A stretch of DNA of 64,000 bases from Blattamonas nauphoetae (taxonomy: Eukaryota > Preaxostyla > Oxymonadida): positions 186,001 through 250,000 of the forward strand of contig JARBJD010000023.1 in assembly GCA_033064195.1 (NCBI GenBank), given 5' to 3'. Below are positions 21,123-48,700 of this stretch, piece after piece. The first letter of the stretch is position 1. Every line of letters begins with the position of its first letter. The position numbers and the translations under genes were made by a program. Under the pieces are notes generated by a model. That model saw only the letters and a list, made by a program, of their open reading frames with translations, was not told the DNA's origin and did not search any database.

Positions 21123-24100
21123 ATGAATGTGAACCAATTACAGGCACATTCAAAAGTCGTTAAGATGCGATTTAGCATCATGACACCGAATCAAATTGTT
21201 AAGAATTCTGTCGTTCCTGTGGAAACCTCTGCTCTGTACAATCAAAATTCTCTTGTCCCAATTCCATATGGTCCTCTCGACAGACGAATGGGATTAAACA
21301 CGAAAGAAGGGATATGCGATACATGCGGGGAACGATCAGCAGACTGTCCTGGCCATTTTGGATATCTCAAACTTGTCCTCCCAGTTTTTCACATCGGTTT
21401 CTTCCGTAGTATTCTGACAACACTCCAAACAATCTGCAAGAGCTGTGGAAGAGTGATGATTGAGGACAGTGACAATAAAACTCGCGTCCTAATGTCTCTT
21501 AAGCAGCAAAACATGAACTCTCTTCGAAAAGGTGCAATTGTGAAAAGAAACATCGAACTTGCGAAAAAATGCCGCATTTGTCCGTTTTGTGACACTGAAA
21601 ATGGCTCAGTCAAAAAGATTGCCCCTTTGAAACTCGCTCATTTCGCCTACACAGACAAAACTTCAGAACTCCAAGCAGAATTCCACCACATGGTGTCAGC
21701 ATGCATCAAAAGCGACCCAGAAGTGGAAAAATCGTTGAAATATGCTCAAGATGGTATTTCCCCGATTAGAGCGCAAAAACTGTTCCAAATGATGCCTGAT
21801 GATGATGCCATCCTCGTTGGGTTCAACCCACCCTATAGCCGTCCAGACCTCATGATTATGACTCATGTGCCCGTTCCACCATGCTGTATTCGTCCATCTG
21901 TCATGACTGATGCCTCTTCAGGAACCAACGAAGACGACTTGACAATGAAAATCCATGAAATCTCACAAACCAATGGGTTTCTCAAAGAACACATGCGACG
22001 CGGGTCACAAATGGCACAAGTTATGGAAACATGGGATTATCTTCAGTTACAATGTGCTCTCCACGTCAATTCAGAACTTCCAGGTCTCCCTCGTGGAACA
22101 GTCCCTGTCCGTCCTACCAGAGGTCTTTCACAACGTTTGAAGGGAAAACAGGGTCGTTTCCGTCAAAATCTGAGTGGAAAACGTGTTGATTTCTCCGGAA
22201 GAACTGTTATCTCGCCCGATCCAAACCTTCGAATTGATGAAGTCGGTGTTCCCCAACTGATTGCTATGAGCCTCACTTTTCCTGAGCGTGTCACTTCACT
22301 CAACAAGCATATCATGATGGACCTTGTTCGCAACGGTCCAAACAAGTATCCCGGAGCAAACTTCGTGAAGAAGACAAATGGACGGCAGTTCATGTTGCAG
22401 CACGGAGATCGAGAAGAAACAGCAAAAAGACTGCAATTCGGCGACATTGTGGAACGACATCTGAAAACAGGCGATGTAGTTCTCTTCAACCGTCAGCCAT
22501 CGCTTCATCGTGTCTCCATTATGGCCCACCACGCTCGAGTGATGCCGTATCGAACACTGCGCTTCAACGAATGCGTCTGCACACCGTACAACGCAGATTT
22601 TGATGGCGACGAAATGAACATCCATCTCCCGCAGACACAGGAAGCTCGGGCAGAAGCGGAGATTCTGATGGGCGTTGTCTATAACCTCTGCACACCTCGA
22701 ACAGGGACCCCTCTCATCGCTGCTACGCAGGATTTCCTCACAGCGTCGTATCTCCTCACACTCAAAGATTCCTTCTTCACAGAACGAGACTTCATGCAGC
22801 TTGTGGCAGGCATGTTTGATGGGAACGTTCACGTCGATCTCCCATCTCCGGCTGTTCTGAAACCTGTCAGGCTGTACACAGGAAAACAAGCTGTCGGGCT
22901 TCTTGTTCATCCAAATCGCAACGACAAATGTCTCCTCACGTTTGAAATGAAGGAGAAGATGCACAGCACGTCTGAGAAGCATATGGACGTCACAGACGGA
23001 TATGTCTGCTTCAGAAAATCTCGCCTGATTTCGGGAATTCTGGGGAAGAGTATCCTTGGAAGCGGAAGTCGAACTGGCCTCTTCTCGCAGCTTCGTCGCC
23101 TCTATGGACCGACAGCTGCTGCGGATTGTCTGGTTCGACTGTCGAAATTCTCGGGACGATGGTTGACCAACCGAGGATTCAGTTTGGGATTGATGGATGT
23201 CTGTCCAACACAGGAGGTGACAGATGGGAAGAATGAGATGGTCCGAGTGGGATATGAAAAGTGTGATGTTCTCATTGAACAGTTCGACACAGGAAAACTT
23301 GAGGCATCTCCAGGGTGCTCACCTGAAGAAACAGTCGAAGGATCGATCAACGGAATCCTCTCGAAGATTCGAGACGATGCTGGTCTGCTTTGCCTTCGCT
23401 CGCTCCCAAACAACAACCCTCCTCTCATCATGGCCATTTCCGGTTCGAAGGGATCGAACATCAACATCTCTCAGATGGTTGCTTGTGTCGGCCAACAAAT
23501 CGTGTCTGGTCACCGAATTCCAAATGGCTTCACAAATCGGTCACTTCCTCACTTCGAGAAGGGATCCCGTCAGCCAGTTGCGAAGGGTTTCGTCTCAAAC
23601 TCTTTCTACACTGGCATGGATGCTCTCGAGTTTTTCTTCCACACGATGGGAGGAAGAGAGGGTCTTGTGGATACAGCTGTCAAGACAGCCGACACAGGGT
23701 ATATGCAGCGTCGAATGATGAAAGCGCTGGAAGATCTGAAAGTTGAGTATGATGGCACAGTCCGAAACGCGTATGGACAGGTGATCGAGTTCTGCTTCGG
23801 CGAAGACGGTGTCGATCCACTCGAAGTGGATGGGGCAAAGGGGATTGATTACGAACGGAATTGGATTCATTCCATCACCAACGTCCCTCCAGAAGGCCAT
23901 CCAAACGAGAACCATATGATCTCTCAATTTCAGATGAAAATCGAAGAAAAACCGTTTGGAAAGAGCGAGCCAGATGATGGAATGATGTTGGACGATCCCA
24001 ACAATCTGTTCAACTCGGTCAACCCCAACGAGCAACTTACTCCGGAACAGATACGCCAGATTGTCTTCACCAACCGACGTACTTGGGAAACACAGCTGGT

Positions 24101-25556
24101 CCACAAGATTCCACAGTCAATCCTCCTCAGTGACGATGGCCGAACGAAGGAAGAACAGGATGAAGTCGCTTCTGATGACAAGAACGTCGTCTTCATCGAC
24201 AAACTGTGCACCTTTATCAACAAAAAGGCGGACAACATCACAAACATGCTCGAGAATCTCACAATCTCTCCTGATCCGACGCAGCAGGCGCTCTGTGTCC
24301 AAAACATCAACCCCGCACCAACTCTCGGCCAGTTCAACTCGTTCCTCCACAACTCAATTGAAATGCTGTCGCATTCCTTCATCGAGCCAGGGACAGCCGT
24401 TGGTGCCATCGCCGGACAATCGATTGGCGAACCCGGAACTCAAATGACACTCAAAACCTTCCACTTTGCTGGTGTTGCTTCGATGAACATCACTCTCGGA
24501 GTCCCACGTCTCAAGGAAATTGTGAATGCTACGCAAACCATCTCGACTCCCATCATCACTGCACCCCTCGTCAAGCCGTACGATGTGATCAGTGCCAGAA
24601 TTGTGAAGGGAAGAATCGAGAAAACAAGACTTGGAGATGTCGCAAGTTGCATTCAAAGTGTGATTGATGGTATTGGTGCCTCCATTGAAATCCAACTCGA
24701 TGTGGACACGCTCTCCGCACTTCAACTCGAAATTACACTTGATTCAGTCGCTGATTCGATTGTCAACACCCCCAAAATGAAAATCAAGCACGAGCATCTC
24801 TCACTCGTCAGAGATAAATCCACAATCATCATCCATCCTCCAAAGAACACCAACGATACACTGAACTACACCATCCACATCCTCCTCACTCAACTCCCAA
24901 ATGTGGTCATCTGCGTATGCTCTTTCTCTTCTTTACTTTCTTGATTTCCACAGGGCCTTCCCGGTATTGAGCGTTCTGTGATCAGTGTCCGAGAAGAGGA
25001 CACAAACGCGGAGAGAACTGCTTACCACCTTTTGTCCGAAGGAACCAACCTTCTCGGTGTCATGACAACACCAGGAATTGATGGATATCACACAACGTGC
25101 AACCACACAAATGAAATTTCCCGTGTGCTGGGTATCGAAGCAGCACGATCATCGATTGTGTATGAGATTGATTACACAATGAAGAGCCACGGAATCACTA
25201 TCGACCCCCATCACACCCGTCTTTTGGGAGATATTATGACGTCCACTGGAGAAGTGCTTGGAATCACCCGTTTTGGGATTGGAAAGATGAAGGACTCAGT
25301 CATGATGCTTGCTTCGTTTGAGAGGACACTCGACCATCTCTTCGATGCCGCTGTGCACGGAAGAGCGGATGAGATTGAGGGCGTGTCAGAATGCATCATC
25401 TTGGGGAAGAATATTCCGATTGGAACGGGGTCTTTTGGATTGGTTATGGATGAACGACAGTCTAAACCATTCGATCAGCAATCATTGCAGAGAAAACCGC
25501 TCCTCAGCACAGAACGTGCTCGACTCAGTTCCCTTTCCCACAAAGACTTACCTTAA
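21123..25556 (+). CDS. RPC1: DNA-directed RNA polymerase III largest subunit (RPC1), 1464 aa
   Basis: RPC1 forms half of the Pol III active centre, which makes tRNA, 5S rRNA and U6. Exons are 21123-24914 and 24954-25556, with one 39-nt intron near the 3' end that joins V-V-I-C to G-L-P-G-I-E. Zinc-binding motifs occur near the N-terminus: C-D-T-C, then D-C-P-G-H-F-G-Y, then C-K-S-C and C-R-I-C-P-F-C. The catalytic magnesium loop N-A-D-F-D-G-D-E-M-N is at about residue 490. The bridge-helix/trigger-loop block reads E-F-F-F-H-T-M-G-G-R-E-G-L-V-D-T-A-V-K-T-A-D-T-G-Y. Pol III rather than Pol II identity follows from the N-terminal clamp sequence, the Y-M-Q-R-R-(M)-x-K-A-L-E-D-L block, and the lack of a heptad-repeat C-terminal domain. 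Length is near the usual 1390-1460. The C-terminus carries about 40 polar residues beyond the conserved core. Confidence 0.97.
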
Positions 25557-27906: not shown

Positions 27907-30900
27907 CTATGCGTCCGGTGGAATTTCTTCCGGAGCTGCTGTTAGGTCTGTCCTGAAAGGTTGTGAAGGTTGTTGTCCAGTGATTGGGATATCAGAGGAG
28001 GAGGAACCTGTTGAAATGGCTGGTGGGTTGGATTGTGACGACGAGGGGATGGATGAATTGATTGAGTCGTCTTTCTTGCCTTCGGCGGGAGTGGTGGTAT
28101 TCTCCTCTGCTGTGGAATCTGACTTTGGAGGGGCATAACATTCTGGTGAATACCAGAGGAGTGTGGGGATTTTGGTGGAGCGAGCGTGGTGGTTGGAATA
28201 ATAAGTTGAGAAGACGAATTGGGAGTTTGATGAGTAGTTTGATCCCATCAAATCCTCAAATTCGACAATATCTGAAGTGATTTTCTTGGAGAAGACTTTT
28301 GTAATTGGCTTTTCAATCTTTTTCTGAAGTTTTGGATTGAGCATTGCGAGAGATGAGGTGCTGCGAGTGAGTGACATTTTGTTCTGTTCCATGCGTTCTT
28401 CTCTCAGTTTGTGGAGGATGGATGGTGCTGTTGTGAGGGGAGAATTATCAACAAGAGCTTTCCTTGGGAGGGTGTGATGGGGATTTAAACCTGCTTTCCG
28501 CATTGACGAGATGATTCGATCGAGACAAGCTTTTCTTCTGATGCGATGATCTTCAAAGACGAGTTCTTGAGCTGCCGTTCGTTTTTCGTCGCGTTCACGT
28601 TCCTGCTCTTCTCGAGCAGCTTTTTCTTCTGGAGTTTCAAGACCCTTAACTTTTTCATCGAGTTCGGCTTGAGTAATCTTTCCTTGTTGGAAAAGTTCTT
28701 TCGCTTCTGCTGCTTCCTTCTCCTTCCTCTCTCTTCGTCGTTTCTCTTTTTCAATCTTCCTTGTTACAATCCTCTCCTCTTCATCATAGTCGCGGATTTC
28801 CATTTCCAAGACCCAGAGATCTTCACGAGCTGCACGAATAGCTTTCTCCAATTCTTCTTTCTCTTCGTCACTGAGTTGAGCGGCTTCAGCTTGCCTCTGA
28901 GCATCTGAAATGAGCTCGTCTTCCACTTTCTTTTCTTCATTCTCTGGTTCAGCTGGCGATGGTTTGAAGTTTGGGGGAAGAACTCGCTCGGTAATTCCTC
29001 CGTCGTGTGGAGTTTCATCAGCAGCTTCATTGCTTCCAGCTTTTGCGATTGCTGCCTCGACAATTTTAGACGGGCCATTTTCGTCTGGTGGGATTTGGTC
29101 AGGAGCAGCAGTGAGATCCGTCCTGAATGGTGAGGCGATTCCTGATTGAGACTTGGGTTGATCAGTTGATTGTGAAGTGGATTTGTCAAGACTGGCACTT
29201 GCTTTCGGATCTTCAGTCGGTTCGTCAGAGGTGCTGAAGTTGGGAGTAAGATAGACAGTTGTTGCAATTGGGGGACACCTGTCATGGGATCGCTGGTAAT
29301 ACCCGGCGAATGCAAACTGTGAGAGAGAACTGAAGGATGGAGCGTTTTTGTCTGCAAACTCATCCAGAGTGTTGATGGTTTGACGTGACCAGATTTCAGT
29401 GACTGGCCGATCAGAAGGTTTTTGGACTTTGGGATTGAGCAAGGCGAGAGATGATGTGCTTCTGGTGAGAGACATCTTGGTGGCCTCACGCTGTTCGTCC
29501 CGGATTTGTTTGAGTAGTTGCGGAGAGTGGGTGAGTGGAGAGAATGGGACAAGAGCTTTTCGAGGGAGAGTGTAGTAGGGATTGAGTCCAACTTTGACCA
29601 TACTTTTGACAATTCGATCGATGCATTCCTTCCTGCGGACACGATGATCGCTTAAAACTGCTTCGCGAGTGAGAGCACGTTGCTCCATTTCATGTGCTTC
29701 TTTTTCTTCCCGTTGTTTCTGCTGGCTCTCTGTTTCGAGATACGGTTCAAGTTCTTTCCATTCTGGTTCCGAAATCTCGCCTTTCGCAAATTTGTCCTTT
29801 GCTTCGACTGCTTCCTTCTGCTTCTTTCGTCTGATGGTCTCTGCTCGGCGGAGGTTGCGGTCGATCAATCTTTCACTTTCGTCGTAATCTCTGATTTCCA
29901 TTTCCAAAACCCAGAGGTCCTCTTTTGCTTTTTTGACTTGTTCATCAAGATCTTCTTTTTCTTCGGGGGTAAGGTTTGATGTGTCCGCTGCTTTGAGGAG
30001 AGCAAAGATTGCATCCTCATTGCTGCTGTCTTGTGGCGAAGCTGTCAAATTCTTCTGCATATTCAATTCAGAGTCTGATCTGTTGATGCCAGAGGACGAA
30101 TCTTTGTCCTTCGCGGAGCGAGGAGCATTTTCTTCGATCCGATTTTGGGCAGACTTGGCCATCTTAAAGTCTTCACTGGAGTCTGGAGGGATGGAATCTG
30201 GGACGGCAGTCAAGTCAGTCTTAAACTTGCTAGCGGGCTTCTCATCCTCATCATCATCAGCGGTGGATGACTGAGCGAGTCGGGAGGCAGCAGGAGGAGC
30301 GTTGGTTGGTCGGACTGGTGGTTTCGGTTTGGCTTCCTCAGTTTCTGAGACGAGATGACGATTGATGAAAAATAAAGAATAAAAACCTTCTTCGTCATCT
30401 TCAAAGAAATTAGGAGTGAAATATGCGGTTGGAGGGAAGAATGGTGCTTTCCGATCTTGTCGGGCGTAATAACGGGCAAAGATGAACATTGAATTCGATG
30501 TATGGAGAGGATCGCTGGCCTTTTCGAAATCTGAGAAAGAATAGAAAAGAGAGAAAAATACCTTGGACATGAGCGGAGTGTCGTTCACCCCAAACTGATG
30601 AAGCACTAAGTTTGATGTCTTTCTGGATTCCGGGTTTGATCTGGCCGAGACTTGACGCTGACCTGGTGAGACTGTTCTTATTCTGTTCGTCTTTCTCTTC
30701 TTTCAGCTTTTGAAGGACTTCGTTGGGAGTCACAAGCGGAGAATTCTTCATGAGAGCGTAACGTGGGAGGACTCGTTTTGGATTCATTCCGGCTTTTTCC
30801 AGAGCAATTTTCAGACTGTCAATGCACACTTTTCGACGAGCCTTATATCCTGCATATCGGTTGCGGTACGCCTCCTTTCGTTCTTCTGCTTCAGCTGCCT

Positions 30901-31085
30901 CTTTGGCGAGTGTCTCTTCATTCTCAACGTATTCTCCTCTTTGCTGGGCCTCCAATTTGTTCTGATTGCGCGCTCTTGTGTCAAATGTGTCTTGCTCTTC
31001 TGCATCACGGATCTCCATCTCGAGGATCCATAACTCATCTTGATACATGGTGACAAGGCGCTTGAGTTCTTCGTTTTCTTCTGCC
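27907..31085 (-). repeat. Three C-terminal modules of about 250-300 residues
   Basis: Each module contains a coiled coil with (D/E)-x-L-W-(V/I)-L-E-M-E-I-R-D. This is followed by a basic patch R-R-K-x-C-(I/L)-D, G-(L/M)-N-P-x-x-x-L-P-R-x-A-L, then S-L-T-R-S-(T/A)-S-S-L. A compact segment ends in x-Y-(F/L/S)-(T/S)-P. The first is near 30387-31085, the second near 29220-29975 and the third near 28110-28890. Each is followed by F-(R/K)-T-D-L-T-A-(A/V)-P-x-x-I-P-P-D; the last copy is the protein's C-terminus. Confidence 0.88.
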
Positions 31086-34000
31086 TCAATTTTCTCTGCC
31101 TTCGCGTCCTTTTTCTTTGCTTCATTTGCCTTTTTCTCCTCTTCAGACTCGGGAGGATTGTATTCGACCGGTGCTGGTTTATCGTTGACAAGCTTTGAAG
31201 AATCTGATTTGGCCTGTGTGAAAGTAGCTGCTGGAGGAGGCTGCTCTGGCGGTTGGACAGTCGGAGGAGTTATAACTGGAATTTGGACTGTTGGCTTAGT
31301 CTCAGTGACAGGCTTTGCAGCTGACTTGGTTTCATCAACAGGTGGAACTTCTGGTTTGGATTCCACCTGAGGGACAACTTTTTGAGGGGGTGGTTCTTTC
31401 ACTTCCTCAAATGAACCGTCCGGACGAGTTTTGATTTTGAGAGTTTTGCCATTCATGATCCCATGGAGGAATCCGTCATCTGCTTCGTTCGATGGCGCAA
31501 CAGTAATGATGTCCTTCCCTTTAGTTTCAGGTGGAACTTCCACAAATGTACCATCCTTTTTCTTTCGGAGTTTTCGTGCACCTGGAGCAAACGCGACATT
31601 AAGTGGAGTTTCGTCTTCATCGACATCTTGGAACGTTCCGTCTTTCTGCCTCTTTAAGAGACGCTTCTCTCCATTGATGATGACAGGGATTCCAAATTCC
31701 TCCTCCTCATCGTCACCTTGCTCACCAGCTTGCTTTGGTTTCTTGAGTTTTCTTGAATTGACCACTGTTGCGATGATGATGTCTGCACCATCGGCATCGA
31801 GTTCGGCTTCTTCCAGAGACCCATCTGGTTTGCGACGGAGCTTTCGAACGCCATCTGCAAGTTTCAATCCAGGCACCTGTTCTTGTTCTTGTGCTTTTTG
31901 TGGCGATTCGTGCCCAAAGACGAGAGCGTCATCATCTTCAGCTGTTTCGATAATATCGAGTCCCGATTTCTTCTTCTTAGGACTTTTGCTCTTTGCGAGT
32001 GATCCTTTGCTCTTTGTCTTCGTAAGCGGCTTGTCGCTCTCCAGTGTTTGATCTGGAAGTGCTGCTAGATCGTTTCCGTTGCTGTCCATTGTGTCGAAGC
32101 TGCTCAAAGTATTATTCTGAGTATCATCATCCCCTTTCTTTGCCTTCTTCTTCTTGCCTTTCCCAACAAGAATCCCAAGTGGTGAATCATCTTCTCCTTT
32201 CTCTTCTCCATCCTTTTTCAGCGCTGCTTTTGAGCCTGATTTTCCGAGTTTCGCTTTCGAGCCCGACTTCTTGATCTTTTTGTCTTTCTTCCCTTTGGCT
32301 CCACTCTGATCGTCGTCGCCCGCATCGCCTCCTTCTTCATTGTTCTTCTCGGTTGTTTCGGACTCTGGACTGCTGGCTGGTGGTTGAGTGGATGGCGGAA
32401 TGGTTGGATTGATAGGTGGAAGACTGACAATCGGAGCTTGTGGTTCATCTTTTGGAGGTTGTTGCGGTTCATCTTTCGGAGGTTGTTGCGGTTCAGTTTT
32501 TGGAGGTTGCTGTGGTTCAGCTTTCTGAGGTGATAGCTCTTCTCGAGTCGTGTCTGGTGCAGTGTCACCGGCGACTGTTCCAGATCCATTAGCTCCTTGC
32601 GAAGGTTTGAAATCGTCCGTTTCCTCCAAACCATCAAGTGTATCATCAAGATTATCTTTTCCTTTCTTGACCTTCTTCTTCTTTCCTTTTCCAACCAGAA
32701 TCGCAAGCGGTGAATCATCTTCTCCCTTTTCTTCTCCATCCTTTTTCAGCGCTGCTTTTGAGCCTGATTTTCCGAGTTTCGCTTTCGAGCCCGACTTCTT
32801 GATCTTTTTGTCTTTCTTCCCTTTGGCTCCACTCTGATCGTCGTCGCCCGCATCTCCTCCTTCAATATCGCTCTTACCTTTCGAATCCAAGTCAGGACTT
32901 TCAGCTGGAGGTTGAGTGGATGGCGGAATGGTTGGATTGATAGGTGGAATACTGACAATTGGAGCTTGTGGTTCAGTTGTTGGAGGTTGCTGTGGTTCAT
33001 CTTTCGGAGGTGGTTGTGGTTCCGCTTCGACAGGCAGTTGCGGTTCTGTTTTGGTGGGTGGTTGTGTCTCGGTTTTTGGAGGAAGTTGAGGTTCAGACTT
33101 CATAGGTTGTTCGACAACAACTGGCTCGATGGATTTCCCTTCTTGAGGTGAGGGTTCTTCTCGAGCAGTGTCTGGTGCAGTGTCAGCTGCGACTATTCCA
33201 GATCCGTTGGCTCCTTGCGAAGGTTTGAAATCGTCCGTCTCTTCCACACCATCGGCAGTATCGTTAAGATTATCTGTTCCTTTCTTGACCTTCTTCTTCT
33301 TGCCTTTCCCAACCAGAATCCCAAGTGGTGAGTCATCTTCTCCTTTCTCTTCTCCATCCTTTGTCAGTGCTGCCTTTGAGCCTGATTTTCCGAGTTTCGC
33401 CTTTGAACCCGACTTCTTGACCTTCTTTCCCTTCTTCGGTTTGGCATCCTCGTCTCCTCCTTCTGTCTCGTCAATGATTGCATCCGGGGGTGTCGTTGTG
33501 GTGGGCTCCTCCCCATTGCGGGATGACGATTTGGTATCATCCTCTCCAGTGACTGGCTCAGGGTTCTCTGAGAGTTCCTCGCTTTTCAGGTCGTTTTTCA
33601 ACGATGATGCAAGCGCGACTAGATTTGCACTGGATTTGGTTTCACTATCATCTTTCTTTACATTGGCTTTCGATCCCGATTTCTTCATCTTCTTTCCTTT
33701 TCCAGTGAGGATGTTGAGTGGAGAATCCGGTGCATCTTTTGTTGTCTTTCCATCCTTCTTTTTCTTTCCTTTCTTCGGTTTCGGGCCATCTGTTGCCGCA
33801 GAATCTTCTCCATCATTTCGAGGAGTTGGTGTTTGAGCTATTGAATCACCGTCGTAGTAACTGTCTGTATCTCGCGAATCGTAGCTGTGGGTGGACATGG
33901 GAGAGGCAAGAGGGCCACCAGCATCTTGGACGAGCTGATTGGCAACTCCTCTCAGAACTGAACCGCCTCCGGGGCCGGTGGTTTCGATGTACATTGGAGA

Positions 34001-37000
34001 CAGTTCGATCGGGTATTCTGTTCCTTCGACCCAATTCTCTTCCCCTTCAAGATATCCTGCGAATTCTCCTTCGTAGAGCCCTTCATTTCCAGGCAGAGAA
34101 CATTTTGGATCATTCGGTTTGCGTTTGAGCATTTTCTTTCCATTGATGATGACAATGTCACGTTTCTCCATCTCTTTCTGGGACATGACTTGGTCTGTCA
34201 AGCCACTGAAACCTCCAAGGGCTTCGTTCGGGTTGCGGAGGATGGTTTGACCATTCGCGGAAGTAGTCGGAACATAATCTGGAGTGATTTGGACTTTGTA
34301 TTCTCGTCCTTCTTTCATGTTTGCTTCACCCTGCACGTATCCCGCAAATTCGCCTTCAAACTCTCCTTTTGATTTTCGTTGTGGATCGTTGGGTCGCCTC
34401 TTCAAGAACTTTCGTCCATTTTTGATAGTGATGATTCTCTCTTCCGTGGCTGGAGTGTCTGGATTCATAATCGCCTGAAGAACTTTCGATGAATGTTTCA
34501 GAGATCGGAGAACACTTGAGCCGTTTGGACCGACGGTTTCCAGATAGTCAGGGGCAATCTGCACAGGATAAACCTGACCTTCCACGAATGTGTGTTCGCT
34601 TGGGAGATAATCGGCGTACTCACCTTCATACAAACCAGCATCTCCAGCGAGGGCTCTTCGAGGGTCGTCAGCCTTTCGTTTCAGCAGCTTTCTTCCGTTC
34701 ACAAGAACCAATTCACGAGCTTCTGTTTTCCCATCCCCTGTTCCTCCTGCGCCTCCGAGGCCACCCATCAGCTCCCGAGGATTTCTCAGTTTTCTCGAGC
34801 CAGCCACTGATATCGTTGTGATGTAGTCTGGGTCGATCTTCTGAGAAAATTGTTCCCCTTCGCTCCTTCCCTTCTCTCCGTTCAAAAGGGGAATATATTC
34901 GCCTTCAAAGATGCCATCGTTTCCGGGAAGAGATCGGAGTGGGTCATCATCCTTTCGAAGGAGCATTGTCTTCCCATCTTGAATTGCAAACTTTCGGAGT
35001 TCGCGACCCTTTTTCTTCTTTGTTCCATCGCCGATTGGATTGTTTGGAACACGGATGATGTCCTGTCCATTGATGCCCTTCATCTCGAGATATCCTTTGT
35101 CAATCTGGACCTCGTAATCCTTTCCTTCAACGAAGTGTGCTTCGCCAGGAATGAAATCGACGAACTCTCCTTCAAATAGTCCAAGATCTCCATTCTGGTT
35201 CTTCCGAGGATCATCAGGTTTCCTGCGGAGCATTTTCCTCCCATTCTTGATCGTGATCGTTCTGAACGTCTTCTCCGAATCGCCTGTTGTTTTACAGTTC
35301 TCAATTCCTCCAATGTCCGATCCCGGTCCTCTCAGGAAAGTTTTGTAGTCATGTCCGACTGTTTCAATATAGTCTGACGGAATAGTGACTGGATATTCGC
35401 CTCCATCGACGAATCGTCCCTCTCCGGGAATTAATGGAACGAACTCTCCTTCGAACTTGCCCTGCTCCCCAGGCAGATTGGATCTTGGGTCGTCAGGTTT
35501 CCTGTGGAGGAGTTTCCTCCCATTTAGCATGGTGATGACACGATATTCTTGTCCAGGTGGTGCCAGTGAATTTGCATTCTGGTCTGGATTTGAGCGATGG
35601 AGTTTTCGTCCGACAGCGTCGCCTGTTGTGCAAACGACGGAGGTTGGGAGTTCGACTCGATACTGGCCTCCTTCCTGATAATCCGCCTCTCCAGGAATGT
35701 AATCAGCGAACTCTCCTTCATACAGGAGATCGTCCCCTTTCAAGCCCTTCTTCTTCAGTTTCTTCATGTCTTTTGCTCGACGTTTGAGCATTTTCCGGCC
35801 ATTGACAATTGTGATGGTTCTAAATTCCTTTTCTTCTTCTTTTCCAGCGCTTGGGAGTTGTGCGTTCGGGTGATGACGTTGGAGTTTTCTGTTCGCTTTG
35901 GCGGCAATCGTGAATCGAGACTGGTCGTTTCCGATCGGAGCACTCGTGCTGAGACCACCCTGGGCTTCGTTTGGATTGATGATAATGTTCTTGTTCTCCA
36001 CACCTTTAGTGACGAGGAGAGACGTTGGAAGCTCAACACCAATGACCGCTCCTTCCGTGAACTTTTCTTCTCCTTTCACGTATCCAACATACTCTCCTTC
36101 GTACATCTTTTCTTCTGGTGTCATTTTTGCGGCGAGCGGCGAAGCCAGGACTGGATCGTTTGGCTTCCGTTTCAGCATTTTCCGGCCATGAACAAAGACA
36201 ATCTCTCGTTTTTCGTTTTCTTCTTTTCCGTTCTTTGAGAGAAGTCCACCCTGAGGAAGATTTCGATCAACCAGACATGTTTGTCCGTTAGCACCAACAG
36301 CAGTGATGTAATTCTCAGGAATGCGCACCTTGTAACGGTTCCCTTCCACGAATGATTCAGAACCAGGAACATGAGGAACATACACCCCTTCGAATTGATC
36401 GGGCTTTGGAGCCTTTGGATTTGCGTCTTTCTTCACAAGCATCTTGTTTCCTTGGCTGAGTTCAATGAACCGATCTTCTCCGGATTTCATTGCTGTAAGA
36501 GCGTTTTCTGGGTCTGTCGCTTGACGGAATTGTGTGTGTCCGTCGTTAGCTTTTAAGGCAATCAAATTTGTGGGGACAGTGACTGAATATTCACCACCTT
36601 CTTGAAATCTGTTCTCGCCAGCAACGAGAGGAACAAACTCTCCCTCAATTGCATCTTGACCATTTCCGGCATTCTTTCGTTTCAACCATTTCTTCCCATT
36701 CTTGAAAACGATGGTCCTTTCTTCTGTTCTTGTAGCATTTTGAGCCGCATCAGCACTTGGAGCAGGTTGTTGCTGTGGAATAACCAGTGGACGGAGAAGG
36801 ATAGAATTGTTGATTCCAGCCATGGGCATGTAATCAGGTGAGAGTTGGATTGGGATCTGTTGGCCTTCGAGGAAGAGCTGCTCTCCAGGAACATATTGTG
36901 TCAATTCTCCTTCAAACTCCCCCTTTGTTTTGATTGCTGGGTCGTTTGGACGACGCCTCAGCATTTTCTTTCCGTTGACGATTTGAATCGTTCGTTGCTC

Positions 37001-40000
37001 TGGGGGATTCATGCACACTGGTGGAATGAGACCACTTTGAGGATCGAGAGGATCTCGGACAGCTGTTTTTCCGCCGACTGTCTTCATCTCAACAGGAGCT
37101 GCTGGGAGACTGACGTTGTACTCCTTTCCTTCAACCATCGATTCCTCACCTTTCACGTATCCAACCCATTCTCCTTCGAATTCAGCTTCTTCTCCTGTTG
37201 CTGTTTTCTTCCGAGGATCGTTCGATTTTCGTTTGAGCATCTTTCGTCCGTTTTTGACGACAATGGTCCTATTTTCGAATGTGGGGTTTCCGTTTTCTCC
37301 GATGACTGGTTTGAGTGTGCGGACATCTCGGGCCACAGGCTTGTTACAAGCAGATGTAACAACGACGTACTTTGGATTCATTTGGATTGGGTATTCTTTG
37401 CCTTCTTCAAAAGTAGCCTCGCCTGGAATGAAATCGGTCAGTTCGGCTTCAAATTGGCCGTCATCACCTGGGAGAATTGACAATGGATCACCCGGAGCTC
37501 GTTTGAGCATCTTCTTCCCATTTTTGATGACAATCATTCGATCCATCTTCTTGTCGGTCGGTGCCATGCCAGAAAACGGATCATGATTGACTGTTCTGAG
37601 ACGTGGTTGGTTATTGACTCCTCTTGTCTCCATGTAGTCGTTGGGAATTGACACCTGGTATTCCTTTCCTTCTTGGAACCGTCCTTCTCCAGTGAGAACA
37701 GGAACATATTCTCCTTCAAACAATCCGAGATCACCTGGCTGGTTTCTGAGAGGATCAGAATCACGTCTTCTCAACATTTTCTTTCCATTTTTGATCATGA
37801 TCGTTCGTTTCTCCGGAGCAAGTGCTGGCTCAAACACAGCAACTCCAAGCAGACCTCCATCCACATCCAACGGGTTGCGGATGATATTTTGGCCCATTGG
37901 ACCTTTTGTCTCGACATAATGAGGATCGATCTGAACTGAATATTCCTTCCCTTCTTCAAATTGTGACTCGTCGGGGAGTGCCCCAGCGTAGATTCCTTCA
38001 AACTTCCCTTCATCGCCTGGTTGTGACGATCGGGGATCCTCAGGCCTTCGTACCAGCATTTTCTTTCCATTTTTGATGACAATCTTTCGGCTCTCTTTTT
38101 GGGTGTTTCCGGCTCCTGCTTCAAGTCCAGAGCCCATCGGGTCGCTTACAGAACGAATCTGAATGGCTCCAGTTGCCGACTTCAATTCGACGTATTCAGA
38201 CGGGATCTGAACTTGATAGTCCTTTCCCTCGACGAAAGAAACCTCGTGAGGCAGGATTGGGATGTATTCTCCTTCGAACTTGCCCATTGCTCCCGGAAGG
38301 GTCTGACGGGGATCTTTGTCCTTTCTTTTCAGCATCTTCTTCCCGTCGAGGATGGTGACGACACGGTTTTCAGCTTTTGTCCCGGCATCTGCAGGTGGTG
38401 CAGTTCCTTCATCTGATGATGGCTGCGCTGGGTTGAATTTGCGTGTTTCCCGCTTGTCTCCAGCTGTTTGGAATCCTCCCATTCCTCCCAACTTATCGTT
38501 CGGATTCAACAAAACTGTCTGCCCTCCTGTTCCTCGGATTTCGATGTAATCTGCGGGGATCTGAACGGGGTATGTTTTGCCTTCTTGGAACGATTTCTCT
38601 CCATCGACGTATGGCACGTATTCTCCTTCATATTTGCCCTGATCTCCTGGGAGACTGGACGAAGGGTCGCCTTTCTGTCTGAGAAGCATTTTCTTTCCGT
38701 TTTTGATGATCAGCTGTCGAGTTTCGACGAGGGCTGCTCGTTCTTCGGGTTGTGACTGTTGCTGTTCCATTGTTCCTTGAGGTGTTTTCTGTTTGAAGGA
38801 AATTTCGACTTCTTTCTTTGAGTTTGTTGAGGATTCGAGTTCTCTAGGAAGTTCGATTTGATATTCCTTCCCCTCTTCCATTTCATTTGAACCAGCAATT
38901 TCTCCAACAAAAACGCCTTCATATGGACTGGTTCCTTTCTTCTTCAGGAGAGGATCCCCAGCCCTTCGTTTCAACATTCGCTGTCCGTTCACAATAGCGA
39001 TTGTTCGGACTTCCTTCTGTCCAGTCACATCTGCTCCTCCACGGATCTTGGCATTCCACGCTTTGTTTTTCGCTACAACAACAGTTTGACCCTTGTCTGT
39101 CTTGACATTCTCAGTGGCAACAGGAACAGGAGCAGCATAGCTGTTTCCTTCTTCGAGGGTGTCATCGCCAGGGAGCTTCTCAAAATACTCTCCGACGAAC
39201 CTGGAATCACCCGTGTCACTTGGTTTCAGGTCTTTAGCTCTTTTTTGAAGCATCTTTCTTCCTTGGGAGATCGTTACGACTCTGGTCTCTGTTGGTTCTT
39301 CTTTGGCTGTGAGAGCGAGCTTGCGGAGGTAGTTCTGGTTCCTCCAGTGAAGGACTGTTTTTCCGTTTTCAACGCTTGTGGTGAGATCGACAGGAATAAG
39401 CACTTTGTAGACGTTTCCGTCCTTCAGATCTTTGTTGTTCACGTCTGGGATCGGATCAACAAGTTCTCCTTCGTATTGATTGTTTGGATCGAGCTGCTGT
39501 CCCGGTCTTGTCCTTCTTCGGAGCATCTTCTTTCCACCGACAACAGCGATCTCTCGTTCAACGAGGGGCTCCATCAGCGATTCTGGTTCGTGGAAGTCGT
39601 CATCATCGTATTGATCACTTCGAAGTTGGATGCTTCCATTTGGTCCTTCAACCGGAACGTAAGTCGACGGAAGATCGACAGTGTATTCCTTTCCTTCCTC
39701 GAACTGAGCCTCGCCAGGAACGAAGTCCATGTACTCACCTTCATACAACCCAGCATCGCCAAGAAGCGAGGAGAGTGGGTCGTTTGGTCTTCGTCGAAGC
39801 ATCTTCTTTCCTTTGACGACAACGATCTTTCGGTCGAGCACCATCTCCATCTCCGCCTCCTCTTCCTTCTCTTCCATGTGCCTCACCCACGTCTCAAACT
39901 CCTGTTTCGCACGGAGGAGAGTCTGGCCTTGCGGTCCCTTTGTCTCGACATAGTCTGGAACGATATCAACTTCGTATTCCTCTCCCTCCCTGAACTGACC

Positions 40001-42101
40001 TTCCCCTGGCACATACACCATGAATTCTCCCTCGAAGCGTCCTTCGTCTCCGGGAAGAGAGCATTTTGGATCGTCTTTCCGTCGAAGAAGCATTTTGCGG
40101 CCGTTCAGAACCATCACTGTTCGGCGCTCGACATTGGAGGCTTCAGTTGCAGCCTCAAGATCGACAGCGAGAGATTCAGCTGTGCGGAGAACACTCTTTC
40201 CTCCAACACCGTTCACTTCGAGATAATCAGATTGGATTTGGACATCGTATGTCTGTCCGTCTTCGTACGCCTCTTCGCCAGGAATGTATCCGATATACTC
40301 TCCTTCGTAAAGGCCTGCATCTCCCGACAATTTGGAGCGAGGATCGTCCTTTTTTCGACGAAGGAATTTGTGGCCGTTGATAATCACAATTTGTCTGTTT
40401 TCCATCTGAATTTTCTCTTCCGCATGTTCCATTTCATCATCACTCTGTTCATCCTCATCGTCCATGTCCGAAGAAGCTTTGCTGATTTGTTTGTTTTTCA
40501 AGAGACGGAGAACGATACCAGCGGCTCCCTTAGCCTCAACATAGTTTGCCGGAATCATGACAGTATATCCAAAACCTTCTTCGAACGATCCTTCGCCCTG
40601 AATAAACTCCGCATACTCCCCTTCGAAGAGACCTTCATCTCCTGTTAACATTGCTCGTGGGTCTGAAGTACGCCGAACCAGCATCTTTTTCCCATTCTTG
40701 ATGATAATTTGACGCTCTTCAAGTTGATCTGACGCAGCTTCGTTCGTTCTTGCATTCTTGATGTTTCGATTTCTCGGCCTTAGAATGACCGACTGTCCAA
40801 TACCTTCAGATTGAACGTAATCGGGGAAAATATCCACTTCATATTCTTTACCCTCCTCAAATTGATTTTCTCCTGTGATATATCCAACGAATTCTCCTTC
40901 ATATTGATCTTTGCCTTCTATATTTGGATCACCTGGCCGTCGCTTCAGCATCTTCCTTCCATTGATAATAACAATCTTTCGCTTTTCAGCCTTCAATCCA
41001 GTTCGATATCGGAGTCCGGGCCTTCCTCGCCTCCTTCTTCGTTGTCTTTGTTTCGGACCAGCTAATTCGGCCTCTTTCTTCTTCTTCAGCATTGCTGCAA
41101 CTCTCTCCTTCCATTTTGAGTTAGCCTGCTGCGCATCAATCTTCTTTTGTTCAAGCATACGCTGTTTTCGGTCTTCAGCCTCTGCTAGCTTGTGTTTGAG
41201 ATCTTTCATGTTTTGCTTTGCCTTTTTCTTTTCCTGGACATGCTTTTGACGAAGACGCTGGGCAGCCTCTTGTTTCTTCTCATCGTCTTTTGCCACACGA
41301 AGCTGCATTCTTTCGGCAGCTGCCTGTTGTGCTTCATTTGAGAAGTCTAAAGGAGAGATGGAACGTTAAGACAGATACACGGATGAATGAAATCACACCT
41401 CCAGTTTGAAATGTAGTAGAATCAGAGAGACTTGCTGTTGATCTGTTTCGAGAATGTTTGATTAGTCGTGCTAACGATGATGTGTTTCCTCCAGTGGTAA
41501 GTGTGCGAAATTGATCTTCCCTATCCTCATCTTCACTAGCATCAGAATCAAGAGAGTTGATAGTTGTCAACGAGGATGTAGATCTGGCATGCTTCTGGTT
41601 CTTCAGCAACTTTTTGGTGACGGATGACGATGACTGTGAGAGAGGGGATTTTGTATGACCATCTGCAGATTTTCCTCCAGCATTGGGTGTGTCATGATGA
41701 GTTGTGTCTCCAGCGTTCGGTGAAGTGTTATCGTTGGAATTGGTTGTCTTCTTCGTCTTCGTTTTCTTCTTTCCCGATGGTTCTGGTGTTTGAAGCTCCG
41801 ATCGGTCAATCAGGAGAGAGTCTGTGGAATCTGTGATCGTGAGTTTGGATTTCTGATGAATGTGTAATGTGGTGAAAGGGAGAGAAGGATACTTTTGTCT
41901 TCTTCGGTTTAATTTCTGTAGTTGTTGACACAACAAGTGTTGATGCAGAGCGAGAAAGTTCATTTGCTGTATTTTTCTTTTTCAAGTGCTTCGTGGATGA
42001 GAGCGTAGCCACAGACTGCGCCCTTTTGCTCTAATCGGAAAAATATGAAGGATAGATTGCATTTGGATCAAAGAAATGACAAAAAAAGAAACCGGATCCA
42101 T
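27907..42101 (-). CDS. Giant multi-repeat protein of unknown family, about 4655 aa, 6 exons
   Basis: I know no family for this protein. Exons in transcript order are 42101-42093 (codes M-D-P), 42030-41893, 41852-41399, 41346-30562 (10785 nt), 30530-30387 and 30344-27907. Introns are 62, 40, 52, 31 and 42 nt; the last is a multiple of three and stop-free. Residues 1-200 are Ser/Thr/Lys-rich; 200-310 are a basic coiled coil ending R-Q-R-R-R-R-R-G-R. About 316-2670 hold 25 repeats of roughly 94 residues built on I-x-N-G-(K/R)-K-M-L-(K/R)-R and (F/Y)-E-G-E-(F/Y). Then come Lys-rich K-K-S-G-S-K-A-K blocks alternating with P-Q-Q-P-P tracts, four K-L-(R/K)-x-K-x-D-G-(S/T) repeats, and three copies of a coiled-coil/basic/T-P-N-F module. 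No signal peptide, membrane helix or enzyme motif is visible. A large cytoskeletal or scaffold protein is a reasonable guess only. Confidence 0.88.
30345..30386 (-). other. 42-nt in-frame intron in the giant gene
   Basis: Donor GTTTTT and acceptor TCTCAG enclose a T-rich 42-nt segment without a stop. If retained it would add a hydrophobic G-F-Y-S-L-F-F-I-N-R stretch in the middle of an acidic linker, which argues for splicing. Read-through would cost only 14 residues. Confidence 0.65.
31390..31870 (-). repeat. Four short basic repeats (K-L-x-x-K-x-D-G-S/T type)
   Basis: Four units occur about 45-60 residues apart: V-R-K-L-R-R-K-P-D-G-S (near 31800-31856), E-K-R-L-L-K-R-Q-K-D-G-T (31620-31672), A-R-K-L-R-K-K-K-D-G-T (31530-31580) and G-K-T-L-K-I-K-T-R-P-D-G-S (31395-31450). 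Each is followed by an acidic or polar stretch. They echo the N-G-K-K-M-L-K-R core of the long repeats and may be relics of the same unit. Confidence 0.75.
32110..33800 (-). repeat. Lys-rich and Pro-rich tandem repeats in the giant gene
   Basis: Three near-copies of a block containing K-K-S-G-S-K-A-K-L-G-K-S-G-S-K-A-A-L, K-D-G-E-E-K-G-E-D-D-S-P-L and I-L-V-G-K-G-K-K-K-K lie near 33270-33450, 32650-32860 and 32110-32330. A degenerate fourth copy lies near 33640-33800. They alternate with P-Q-x-P-P-K-(T/D)-E minisatellite tracts (about 32960-33110 and 32430-32530) and an I-P-P-I-N-P-T-I-P-P-S-T-Q-P-P segment. The block is strongly basic with an acidic break in each unit. Confidence 0.9.
32203..32854. 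repeat. 124-bp direct repeat, identical by eye (32203-32326 and 32731-32854)
   Basis: The two 124-bp segments are the same base for base, including third codon positions, at an offset of 528 bp. Flanking sequence is similar but not identical. Both encode the Lys-rich K-K-S-G-S-K block. Exact identity at silent sites points to recent duplication or gene conversion. Confidence 0.88.
33930..41000 (-). repeat. 25 tandem protein repeats of about 94 residues
   Basis: Reading 5' to 3' on the minus strand, I count 25 successive units, mean period about 283 nt. The consensus has five blocks: E-x-R-x-(I/V)-x-(I/V)-x-N-G-(K/R)-K-M-L; then (K/R)-R-x-x-D-P; then G-x-x-G-x-(F/Y)-E-G-E-(F/Y); then G-E-x-x-F-x-E-G-x-x-Y-x-V-x-(I/L); then Y-(I/V/L)-x-x-x-G-x-x-G-x-x-x-L-R. 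Linkers between units vary from about 15 to 45 residues and are acidic or Gly/Pro-rich. Units 6, 7, 8, 16 and 17 are the most diverged. Alternating beta-type and turn residues suggest a small all-beta fold, which is inference. Confidence 0.93.
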
Positions 42102-42344: not shown

Positions 42345-43338
42345 ATGGCACAACCAGCAAGACACCTTCTGAAAATTTCTGATCTCTCAAAAGTTCGACC
42401 TTTCTTTAGTTTAAAAATCCACCCTCGTTCAGGAAGAAATCATGAAAATCATTGACTGTGCGAAGTCTCTCAAGGCACACCCCGAAAAGTATGCCGATAG
42501 AATGAAGCAAGAAACACTATTAATGCTGTTTGAGAAGCCTTCCCTCCGTACACGTGTCTCCTTCGAGACTGGAATGACCCAAATGGGAGGCCATGCCATC
42601 TTCTACTCCGTGGCTGACTCGCCCCTCGGGAAGAAAGAATCTATTGAGGATACAGCCAAGGTTCTTTCTCGTTTCGTGAATGTTGTCATGGCAAGACTGA
42701 ATAAGAGATCGGACTGCCGTCAGCTCGCTCACAATTCGACGATCCCTGTCATCAACGCCCTTGATGACTTCGCCCACCCATGCCAAATGCTCGCCGATCT
42801 TCTGACAATTATTGAGAAGAAACAGAAAGTCGAAGGTCTCAAGATGGCATACTGCGGTGACATCCAAAACAATGTCACATACGATCTGATGCGCCTCGCA
42901 TCAGTCATGGGTTTCGAAATCCACGTTGCCGGTCCTTCGGGCGAGGGATACGATGCCGAAAAAGAGGTCATTGACGAATGCAATGAACTCTGCGCAAAAT
43001 CAGGTGGCAAAGTCGTTCTTTTCCATACGAACGCTGCTGACGCCTGCAAAGATTGCGACATCATCTACTGCGATTCGTGGATGTCCTATGGAATTCCTGC
43101 TGCCGAAGCTGATCAAAGAGTCGCAAAATTCATGCCGTTCCAAGTCACTCAGGAGGTTCTCAACCAGGCCAAGCCAGATTGCATCTTCATGAACTGCCTG
43201 CCGGCTGCTCGTGGAATGGAGCAAACTGCCGAAGTTGTTGATGGACCCCACTCTGTTGTCTTTGACGAAGCTGAGAACCGTCTTCACGCACAGAAGGCCC
43301 TCCTCCTCTTCCTCTGCGGTAAGAAAATGACCGAGTAA
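42345..43338 (+). CDS. OTC: Ornithine carbamoyltransferase, 317 aa, 2 exons
   Basis: OTC interconverts ornithine plus carbamoyl phosphate with citrulline. In anaerobic protists it usually works in the catabolic arginine deiminase pathway, feeding carbamate kinase for ATP. Exons are 42345-42392 and 42433-43338, with a 40-nt intron. The carbamoyl-phosphate site S53-L-R-T-R57 and H-P-C-Q-M-L-A-D are intact. The ornithine loop reads D230-S-W-M-S-Y-G rather than the common D-x-W-x-S-M-G. The usual H-C-L-P motif reads N270-C-L-P; the reactive cysteine is kept but the histidine is replaced. No mitochondrial presequence is present, so a cytosolic enzyme is expected. G+C at third positions is higher than in the neighbours, which may reflect high expression. 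Putrescine carbamoyltransferase is less likely because the S-x-G loop is present. Confidence 0.95.
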
Positions 43339-45734: not shown

Positions 45735-48700
45735 TCAAGATTGTCTCTTTGCGGATCCGATCCACTCTATGAATCGTTCGCAAGCATCCGTGCTTTCCGA
45801 AACGAAAGACGGATCAATCTCGAAAGAGTAGAAGAGATCCAACACTTCCAAAACATCGAAGAATTCCGAGAATGTTGTAATTGGAAGGTATTCTTCTTTG
45901 ATCGTCGTTTCTATCGCTGCCGAGAGTGATAGGTAGAGTTCTGCATTCTCAAAGCGCAGACTCGTGAAGATGCTACTGGCATACGGGGAGGATGAGCTCG
46001 CAGTCACAGAAAAGGGGGCGGGGAGGGGATTGGCTGTGAGGGATGGAACATTGAAAAGGGATGGGAGTTGGTTTGATGAAGTTGTTATGAATGAAGTGGA
46101 GGAGGATTGGGCAGGCGGGTTGACTGCTGTTGGACGAAGTTTCGTCCCGAAGAGTTCAACAACAACAAAAAGAAGAAGTGACGGTTGAAGTGAGGCAAAG
46201 GTCGGTTTGGAATGAGTCTTCCGACGGAGGATGCTGTGCATGAGATGTCGTCGGAAGAAGAGTGGTCGAAGTTGTTTCCATTCGTTGGAGTCAAAGAAGA
46301 GCAGACCAAGGAGAGCGTAGAAGATTGGAGTGTTGATGGCAGAGGATGACGACCGAGAAGCAAGCATGTTGGCTAAGAAGACAGAATCGGTTTGGTTGAC
46401 AAAGCTTTCGAGATCTCGGCCCACAGTCTCTCGAGCTTCGATCCCAGACCAACTTAGAGAAGTTCCCTTTGAGAGGATCCAATGTGCCATCCCGAGGAGA
46501 TGAGGAACAAGGAGGATTTGTGATTCCTTCGATCCTCCAATGTCTTGATGTGCTGAACCGAATGAGGTGGGAGAGCACCACAATGAGACAATACGCTCGA
46601 CTGACTGACGGGCGCACTCGATGAGCACACGCCACTTCGGGATTCGTTTGTTGAGGCCAGCTGAAGAATCACACATTCTCTCGAAAAATGCCTCGACTAA
46701 GCTTCTATAGTCAGAATCTGAGATTCCGTCGGAAACGAGTGGGAACATCGCATTGCACTTCATTCCACCATTTCGGAGGGCTGCACCGTCCCATTCGTTC
46801 CTCATTTTTCGTTCACTGCTATCGGCTTTCGCTGCATTCTTGTGGCAGTTCCTGTGCACGAGCGCGAATTGAGTTGAAAGTTGAATGCCGTCTGACTGGT
46901 TGCTTGCACTTTGGATGAACATCGACGTCCCCATCGGACTCTTCGTCCCATTGACGTACACGAGGAGTGCTTCATTCTTCCTGTACTTGAATCCTTCGCG
47001 ACAGATCAGGCAGCACATCCGTTCATCTTCTTCTTCGTAATCCGCAAATTTGTTCTTTCCGCCTTTGGACTCACTTTCCATGAGCTTTTGTGATATCTCT
47101 GTCGCTGTCGAAGAAACAACGGTTCCATTCTGTTTGACGCCAAAGCCCATTTCCTTGAGCATCTTCTCTCGGAGCTTCTGAGCCTTTTCTTTCTTTTTCT
47201 TCTTCTCTTCCTCAATGATGTTCTGCCCTTTTTCAGAAACAGCTGTATCTGGACAATCGTTGATTGCTCGCATTATTCCCTCAGCTGCAGCACCCACTCT
47301 GTCAATGGATGTAACTGTGGTCATCTTTCCAATCGACACGAGTAGAGCTTCTTGAGTCATTGTTGCATTCAAGATCATCTCAAGCACAGGAGTGTATCCT
47401 CCACGGCAAAGACCTTCTACGATCGACAGCGCATATGGGAACGATGGAACATGGATTGACTCCTCGCAGAATGTTGTTGGATGGGCCTGCGCCGAATCAT
47501 TGACAACTCGTGCAATGTAGTCAACGCATTTCTTAGTGATTCCTCTTTGTGTCACGAGATCTTTAATTTTCTGTCCAACTGAATCGATTCCCATTGAACC
47601 GCAGAGCAGTGCAAAGCAGCTCAAGTTGAAGGTCAGTTTGCTTCGTTGAATCGCATTCTCGCTTGTTGGGTCTTCTTTCTTGTCCTCCAGGGGGAGCTTG
47701 TCGAGAGCTTCAAAATCAAGGTTTGGCTCGAAGTATGAGACAAGGAGATCCATTGCTTTATCCTCCCCAAACGTCAGGAATGGAAGGATGGACATGATTG
47801 ATGACACCAACTTCTGATTCTTCTTCACAGTCGGCGATGAAAGACGAGAGAGGATTGCACTGATGTGAGAAGAATGAGAGCCGAGAGTTGCACTCTGAAT
47901 GGACGATGAGTAGTTCAAAGTTGAAGAAGCGATGAGATGAGGAGTGAAGAGAACAGGTGACTGGTGACTTGGAGGAAGCAGGAGATCTGTGGGCGGCGAC
48001 TCTTTCAGCCGATGGGAGTCTCTGTTGTGTTCGATGCTGCTGATCGACAATGACTCTTGCTCAGATACAAGTGTTCCCAAGATTATGATGATTTGTTCGG
48101 CTGCATCAACGTCGACTTGTTTATCACTGTTCATTGCAACCCTCAACAACGAAACGAGAATGCCAATGGGATCGATTCGACCAGAAGGTGTTTCCAAGCC
48201 AGAAGAACGGATTGTTCCAAAAGAACTGCTCAGTTCGAGAATTCGCCTCTTCACACAACGAAGTCGGCAACCATAGCGGAGGAGACGGAGAAGATATCCG
48301 GCGAGCTCGGATTGAATGTCGAAGTTCAAAATGGAGCTCAGGAAGATGAAGATAATTGCTGTTCCGTCTAAACCGTCCTTTTCTGAGGAAACACTGAACG
48401 TGGGTGAAGCGGTTGGGGATTGCTGGGCAAGTTGTGTGGCTGGAGACGTGGCAAAACGTACTGTTGTTGTAGCTTGTGTGACAGCAAGATCTGCTTCCTT
48501 TCTCACGATGTTCAGAGGATCCGACTGTGGGCTCGGTGTTGGCTCTGGGATGGACGGCATCATGTGGTGGATGTAGTGACCGAAGAGGGTTTCGTTTCCG
48601 TTCTTGTCGTAAAACACGACGAGTTCCTTGTCTTGGGAAGCTTTTTTGGAGAGTTGTCCCGACGATGGAAGAGACACAGCATCAAGCTTAAGGAGGAGAG

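Follow-up and report, generated by a model that had tools for sequence, protein, structure and literature searches.

Titin-like giant modular proteins of the cytoskeleton combine a long array of small domains, fixed in number, with distinct ends. Long arrays of small domains are also common in secreted or surface adhesin-like proteins. The MORN repeat (PF02493), which we take to be a unit of about 23 residues, presumably resembles the unit described below only superficially, in the motif Y-E-G-E-F/Y and in glycine spacing. In oxymonads, the axostyle is made of most of the microtubules, according to a published account (PMC2837639).

We studied a gene for a giant repeat protein that lies in a 64,000-nucleotide stretch of the genome of Blattamonas nauphoetae (hereafter the window). 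Its likeness to titin-like proteins is one of layout only, and neither Ig nor FnIII was found among the Pfam matches of its units. The MORN model matched 0 of the 25 units at E≤1, and the units are spaced by 94.7 aa on average (range 82 to 129). Titles and abstract beginnings in the literature searched, with few subscription journals covered, held nothing on this protein or on an axostyle or preaxostyle proteome.

A predicted six-exon gene encodes the giant protein

An earlier note, made from the letters of this DNA alone, had described at 27907..42101 one long gene for a protein of about 4655 residues, with a basic head, 25 repeats, a Lys/Pro-rich spacer and a triplicated tail, and had supposed an oxymonad-like host. 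B. nauphoetae is indeed an oxymonad. Both the coordinates and the length were reproduced by a spliced model of six exons on the minus strand (42101-27907), which gives 4655 aa with 0 internal stops and has introns of 62, 40, 52, 31 and 42 nt; it is a predicted model whose exon borders were picked by sequence (GT..AG). Basic head, 25 units, K/P-rich linker and triplicated tail were all present in the resulting protein. The features are given below, the coordinates of T1, T2 and T3 being arithmetic from the gene model and the tail alignment.

27907..42101, minus strand: whole gene model, stop-free when spliced; same architecture in the paralogue P0003
42101-42093, 42030-41893, 41852-41399, 41346-30562, 30530-30387, 30344-27907, minus strand: the exons, with GT..AG borders
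42093..42101, minus strand: exon 1 (M-D-P, 9 nt), followed by a phase-0 intron, as is the first exon of P0003
40994..42030, minus strand: remainder of the basic head, aa 4-318 (exons 2 and 3 plus the beginning of exon 4), S/T/K-rich and then a charged stretch free of P and G
33911..40993, minus strand: array of 25 units, aa 319-2679 (profile HMM)
40993, 40726, 40408, 40135, 39844, 39568, 39295, 39019, 38731, 38377, 38101, 37819, 37552, 37282, 37006, 36730, 36484, 36220, 35833, 35554, 35275, 35008, 34729, 34450, 34174, minus strand: unit starts (profile HMM)
31115..33910, minus strand: linker, aa 2680-3611, K/P/D-rich, with motifs and DNA repeats
30100..31114, minus strand: tail module T1, with introns 4 and 5 inside; 57% identical to T1 of P0003 and its sister in the tail tree
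29002..29994, minus strand: tail module T2, sharing 44% identity with T3 of the giant protein
27910..28896, minus strand: tail module T3, ending in F-R-T-D-L-T-A-A-P-E-E-I-P-P-D-A (spliced model and tail alignment)

The reading of the region as one long gene was supported by P0003, in which head, array, linker and tail follow one another in this order within one deposited protein. A very short first exon in phase 0 opens each of the two models (3 aa in the giant gene, 5 aa in P0003), and a phase-1 intron lies at the identical site of T1 in both (H-V-Q/D-F and H-V-E/D-F); the remaining tail introns differ between the two genes. A deposited full-length record of the giant gene was not among the matches listed by the protein search, which gave only P0003 and P0004. 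The frame P0006 (887 aa) is the tail of the giant gene translated across two introns and does not point to a separate gene. According to the genome paper (PMC10703272), the gene prediction by its authors used intron hints from RNA-seq as well as assembled transcripts.

Other genes and frames were recognized in the window. An ornithine/aspartate carbamoyltransferase gene with both Pfam domains (42442-43338, plus strand) is divergent from the giant gene; beyond it lies a 6080-aa frame for a UBR4-like giant E3 ligase (45735-63977, minus strand; PF13764, E 1.3e-117), and on the other side a gene for the largest subunit of RNA polymerase with Rpb1 domains 1-5 (21123-24944, plus strand).

The array is made of 25 diverged units outside the families searched

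The unit profile gave 25 matches of 65-114 bits on the giant protein, plus one of 1.3 bits within the linker, and leave-one-out profiles recovered 25 of 25 units (50-115 bits); in 200 residue shuffles of the giant protein the best stretch reached 3.1 bits. At the DNA level, Tandem Repeats Finder (score ≥50, period ≤500) reported only repeats of 24 and 48 nt, at 32438-32531 and 32967-33026, both in the linker. Since no DNA-level tandem repeat accompanies the 25 units, they have diverged too far to be explained as recent duplicates or as identical copies produced by mis-assembly.

Hydrophobic positions flank an N-G turn in the unit (I-x-I-x-N-G-K-K-M-L), and the further conserved columns are E-G-E-Y/F, P-G-E, E-G-x-x-Y-x-V-x-I and a final G-x-x-G preceding L-R. 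In all 25 units the charge is split, the first part having a net charge of +1 to +7 and the second part of −2 to −9. A crude propensity average was strand-like at positions 4-8, 38-39, 53-56, 61-62 and 70-73 and helix-like at 13-16, 44-46 and 48-49, which is weak evidence that the unit may be a strand-rich domain.

The earlier note had matched the unit to no named family, and this judgement holds: no credible match to the unit was found in Pfam, NCBIfam, PHROGs or PDB sequences. Pfam-A, NCBIfam and PHROG gave weak matches, each in 1 of the 25 units, with best E values of 0.03, 0.047 and 0.029, respectively; four Pfam-A families were matched by any unit at E≤1. Against PDB sequences, the 25-unit profile had no match at E≤10, a 71-unit profile had a single match (E 1.1) and a two-unit query returned five rows, the best being a levansucrase (E 0.49).

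P0003 has kept the number, order and spacing of the units

Two more intact genes of B. nauphoetae, P0003 and P0004, carry the unit, which is new here. P0003 is a deposited protein of 4291 aa (C45:12288-25587) made of a head, 25 units (an extra match of −4.4 bits was discarded), a linker and three tail modules, and it is 53% identical to the searched array region across 99% of it. FtsY, the SRP receptor, is defined by its SRP54/FtsY GTPase domain. The name under which P0003 is deposited, 'putative signal recognition particle-docking protein FtsY', has no supporting domain: a Pfam scan at E≤1 returned one family only, aRib, with 17.2 bits for a cut-off of 27, and the aRib matches, a 22-residue stretch each, were rejected as under this cut-off.

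When the units of the two paralogues were compared, the best BLAST match had the same index in 19 of 25 cases. A maximum likelihood tree of 71 units, built on few alignment columns and with 26 of its 68 inner branches open, placed 22 of the 25 same-index pairs as sisters, with ≥95/80 for 20 pairs; it left pairs 20, 23 and 25 unresolved and contradicted none of them. The distance from the first to the last unit is 2273 aa in one paralogue and 2294 aa in the other, a difference of 21 residues, and the 24 inter-unit spacings are correlated (r=0.948), a value as high being reached in 0 of 10000 permutations. Conservation of unit number, order and spacing in P0003 lends indirect support to a ruler or scaffold of the kind that the earlier note had proposed.

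The arrays align over 2340 codons with 54.7% identity and 45+22 gap columns, so that 45% of the residues differ. Third codon positions are 38.6% identical, dN is 0.41 and dS is saturated (not computable); an array kept at such values argues for long-lasting purifying selection. In contrast, BLASTP at E≤1 found no match between the linkers, for which 950 and 620 aa were compared, meaning that the array was conserved and the linker was not. That of P0003 is E/K/R-rich and poor in P and G, whereas that of the giant protein is K/P-rich. Units 1-5 formed the most alike group (66-73% identity, where 18 others average 54%; p 0.0014). This group was picked post hoc among 23 of the 25 units, units 23 and 25 being left out because their same-index match was not among the two best; units 19 (71%) and 9 (67%) are as similar to P0003 as units 1-5.

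Head, linker and tail modules

The head (aa 1-318) has a net charge of +32 and contains a charged stretch free of proline and glycine at aa 201-296, putatively the coiled coil of the earlier note. It is 49% identical to the head of P0003 across 86 aa. In the linker we found seven K-S-G-S motifs, 24-nt repeats encoding Pro-rich stretches and, at aa 3370, 3430, 3460 and 3505, four short hairpin-like motifs of the form D-G-S/T. To read these last as truncated units found no support: compared by profile with the short form of the unit, they reached a probability of 1.5%.

The three tail copies of the giant protein share 31-44% identity with one another. All six copies of the two paralogues, three in each, have in common the motifs L-W-x-L-E-M-E-I-R-D, R-K-x-x-I/L-D, L-P-R-x-A-L and S-P-L-T/V, and further S-L-T-x-S-x-S and F-x-T-x-L-T-x-x-P-x-x-I-P. 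In the tail tree T1 is sister to T1 of P0003 (100/100) and T3 of the giant gene is sister to T2 of P0003 (91/91), which suggests that the paralogues differ by an exchange of T2 and T3; if so, the tail was kept less strictly.

A divergent single tail module ends a gene-like locus on C31 (L042:3470-4431), which appears intron-rich as read from its frames. One of its tail pieces matched the tail profile with E 1.2e-16 and another with E 0.0097 (among 1723 frames), and a Pfam scan of one of the two pieces had no match at E≤0.1. As no unit on C31 was among the matches listed by the six-frame unit searches, the tail module is not tied to the array.

P0004 joins the unit to kinase-like and ARM-type parts

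P0004 (BLNAU_9451, 3297 aa, on C612) contains 21 units of the giant protein's family (27-105 bits), long and short forms being intermixed; the short form is related to the long one at a probability of 99.6%. In the tree, 20 of its 21 units cluster apart, the exception being the unit P4_2. Units 7 and 16, like units 10 and 19, are sisters at an offset of nine, which indicates that the unit family is able to change its number, by blocks. No tail module on C612 was among the matches listed by the tail search.

The remaining domains of P0004 are an alpha-kinase-like domain (PF02816, E 2.7e-7, 31.3 bits for a cut-off of 21.3; aa 2262-2435, C612:162495-163016) and an ARM-type region, ZER1-like above the cut-off of that family and matching ARMC5 below its own. 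This was the one alpha-kinase match of the six-frame genome search, in which two candidates were scored and which intron-split copies could escape. Two stretches of eEF2K that we take to be catalytic, D-I-Q-G and T-D-P-Q, are not kept in its alignment with P0004, so the domain may be a pseudokinase.

Other copies in the genome and beyond

Six-frame searches of the assembly (88,311,006 bases, 837 contigs) with the array, the tail, the P0004 units and the head revealed an unbroken unit array in three genes: the giant gene, P0003 and P0004. The array search scored 20 of 54 candidates and the P0004-unit search 54 of 54; counts of dispersed pieces are lower bounds. At least 16 dispersed places (L003-L007, L010, L014-L016, L018-L024) are 57-93% identical to P0003 in their best stretch, and 14 of these contain stops; L029 and L030 add pieces to two of the 16. 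On account of the stops and of their identity to P0003, they were read as decayed P0003-like copies and rejected as further members of the family. L063 was read likewise; the 20 matches listed by the search of L063-L065 were all from L063. The P0004-unit search also gave weak unit matches on C648 and C254. On C3, fragmentary matches to the tail profile suggest a decayed tail.

Seven of these places (L010, L018-L021, L023 and L024, on C527, C754, C285, C99, C825, C250 and C200) lie in a dispersed repeat, roughly 3 kb long, that carries a decayed piece of P0003, approximately units 24-25 and the linker. The repeat is 98.9-99.9% identical among the seven contigs in aligned stretches of more than 150 nt, has diverged relatives in L014-L016 and L022, and looks like an element that may have captured host exon sequence.

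Outside B. nauphoetae, no relative was among the matches listed by three protein searches of 5.8 billion sequences, a result that does not imply absence from other oxymonads. The searches scored the best 2297, 7998 and 7997 candidates by word sharing and covered lengths of about 1977-6290 aa, 261-831 aa (array) and 362-1153 aa (tail); array relatives of about 831-1977 aa would fall outside these ranges, and the Monocercomonoides proteins sourced from GiardiaDB may lie outside the database. Among viral contigs, 70 pattern matches included 0 relatives; phages gave no match and a prokaryote scan nothing credible. An archaeal match, L066 (36% identity over query residues 216-257), has stops in the three surrounding frames and an E value relative to candidate stretches only, and was rejected as a chance match.

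What the giant protein may do

The reading that we prefer, with chances that we judge to be evenly balanced, is that the giant protein works inside the cell as a scaffold or cross-linker whose length is conserved and which is anchored at both ends. The basic head and the triplicated tail would be two different anchors, and the 25 small domains in fixed order the spacer between them. As each unit is basic in its first half and acidic in its second, head-to-tail packing could occur between successive domains or between molecules lying in parallel, and the protein would span or space two structures. We infer the intracellular and cytoskeletal role, the ruler function, the manner of packing and any particular site, the axostyle included. 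In favour of a scaffold of conserved length are the 25 units of both paralogues with their order and span kept, the conservation of the array under purifying selection while the linker diverged, and the charge split found in every unit. The three tail copies of both paralogues and the single tail without units on C31 point the same way, as does the absence of a strongly hydrophobic segment together with few cysteines (best 19-residue hydropathy 1.11; 12 Cys in 4655 aa), from which the protein is probably intracellular. These last features, with a basic head and no hydrophobic N-terminus, make a secreted or surface adhesin-like repeat protein highly improbable, even if arrays of small domains are frequent in such proteins. 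Several observations weigh against the scaffold: the apparent T2/T3 exchange suggests a tail less strictly kept, helix-like as well as strand-like stretches occur in the unit, and no more than 19 of the 25 units picked their own index in BLAST. Signalling or nuclear scaffold roles would fit equally.

The count of 25 may also be passive. Units that differ by half their residues offer little substrate for unequal recombination, and the count may stay as it is for that reason; a ruler would need a conserved count, but the count would stay just as constant in an array whose divergence prevents recombination. The strong divergence of the units without DNA-level tandem repeat and the block-wise changes in P0004 both suit an old, non-recombining array without ruler function, an explanation that rivals the ruler part only and that we regard as somewhat unlikely, given that the spacings were kept as well while the adjoining linkers show no match between the paralogues. 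If the units were instead docking domains joining the array proteins to P0004, the giant protein would be a signalling scaffold. Kinases are suited by R-S-x-S-x-L motifs, and these are present in the head and the tails; P0004 itself combines 21 units with PF02816, the sole alpha-kinase match of the six-frame search, and an ARM-type region. With D-I-Q-G and T-D-P-Q not kept in the alignment and a pseudokinase possible, we consider this reading unlikely. To place the protein in the axostyle or preaxostyle, as the earlier note had suggested, is a special case of the scaffold reading, with which its chances overlap. The oxymonad host and the lack of a relative outside B. nauphoetae among the matches listed by the three protein searches are consistent with such a site. 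The tie to microtubules consists of the K-x-G-S motifs of the giant protein, which presumably resemble tau/MAP2 repeats, but P0003 has a single K-x-G-S, and this outside its linker; we consider such a component unlikely. Less probable still, in our view, is the fuller picture in which a unit family private to oxymonads or to the genus would build a pair of 25-domain rulers of fixed length that cross-link or space sheets, microtubular or paracrystalline, in the axostyle or preaxostyle, with P0004, which has the unit too, as a regulator.

The giant repeat protein offers a concrete candidate for a structural protein specific to its lineage. Its unit lies outside the libraries searched, occurs in two paralogues with nearly equal array length and has been recombined with a kinase-like domain. 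Altogether, the giant gene and P0003 offer a case of a fixed domain count over a long divergence.
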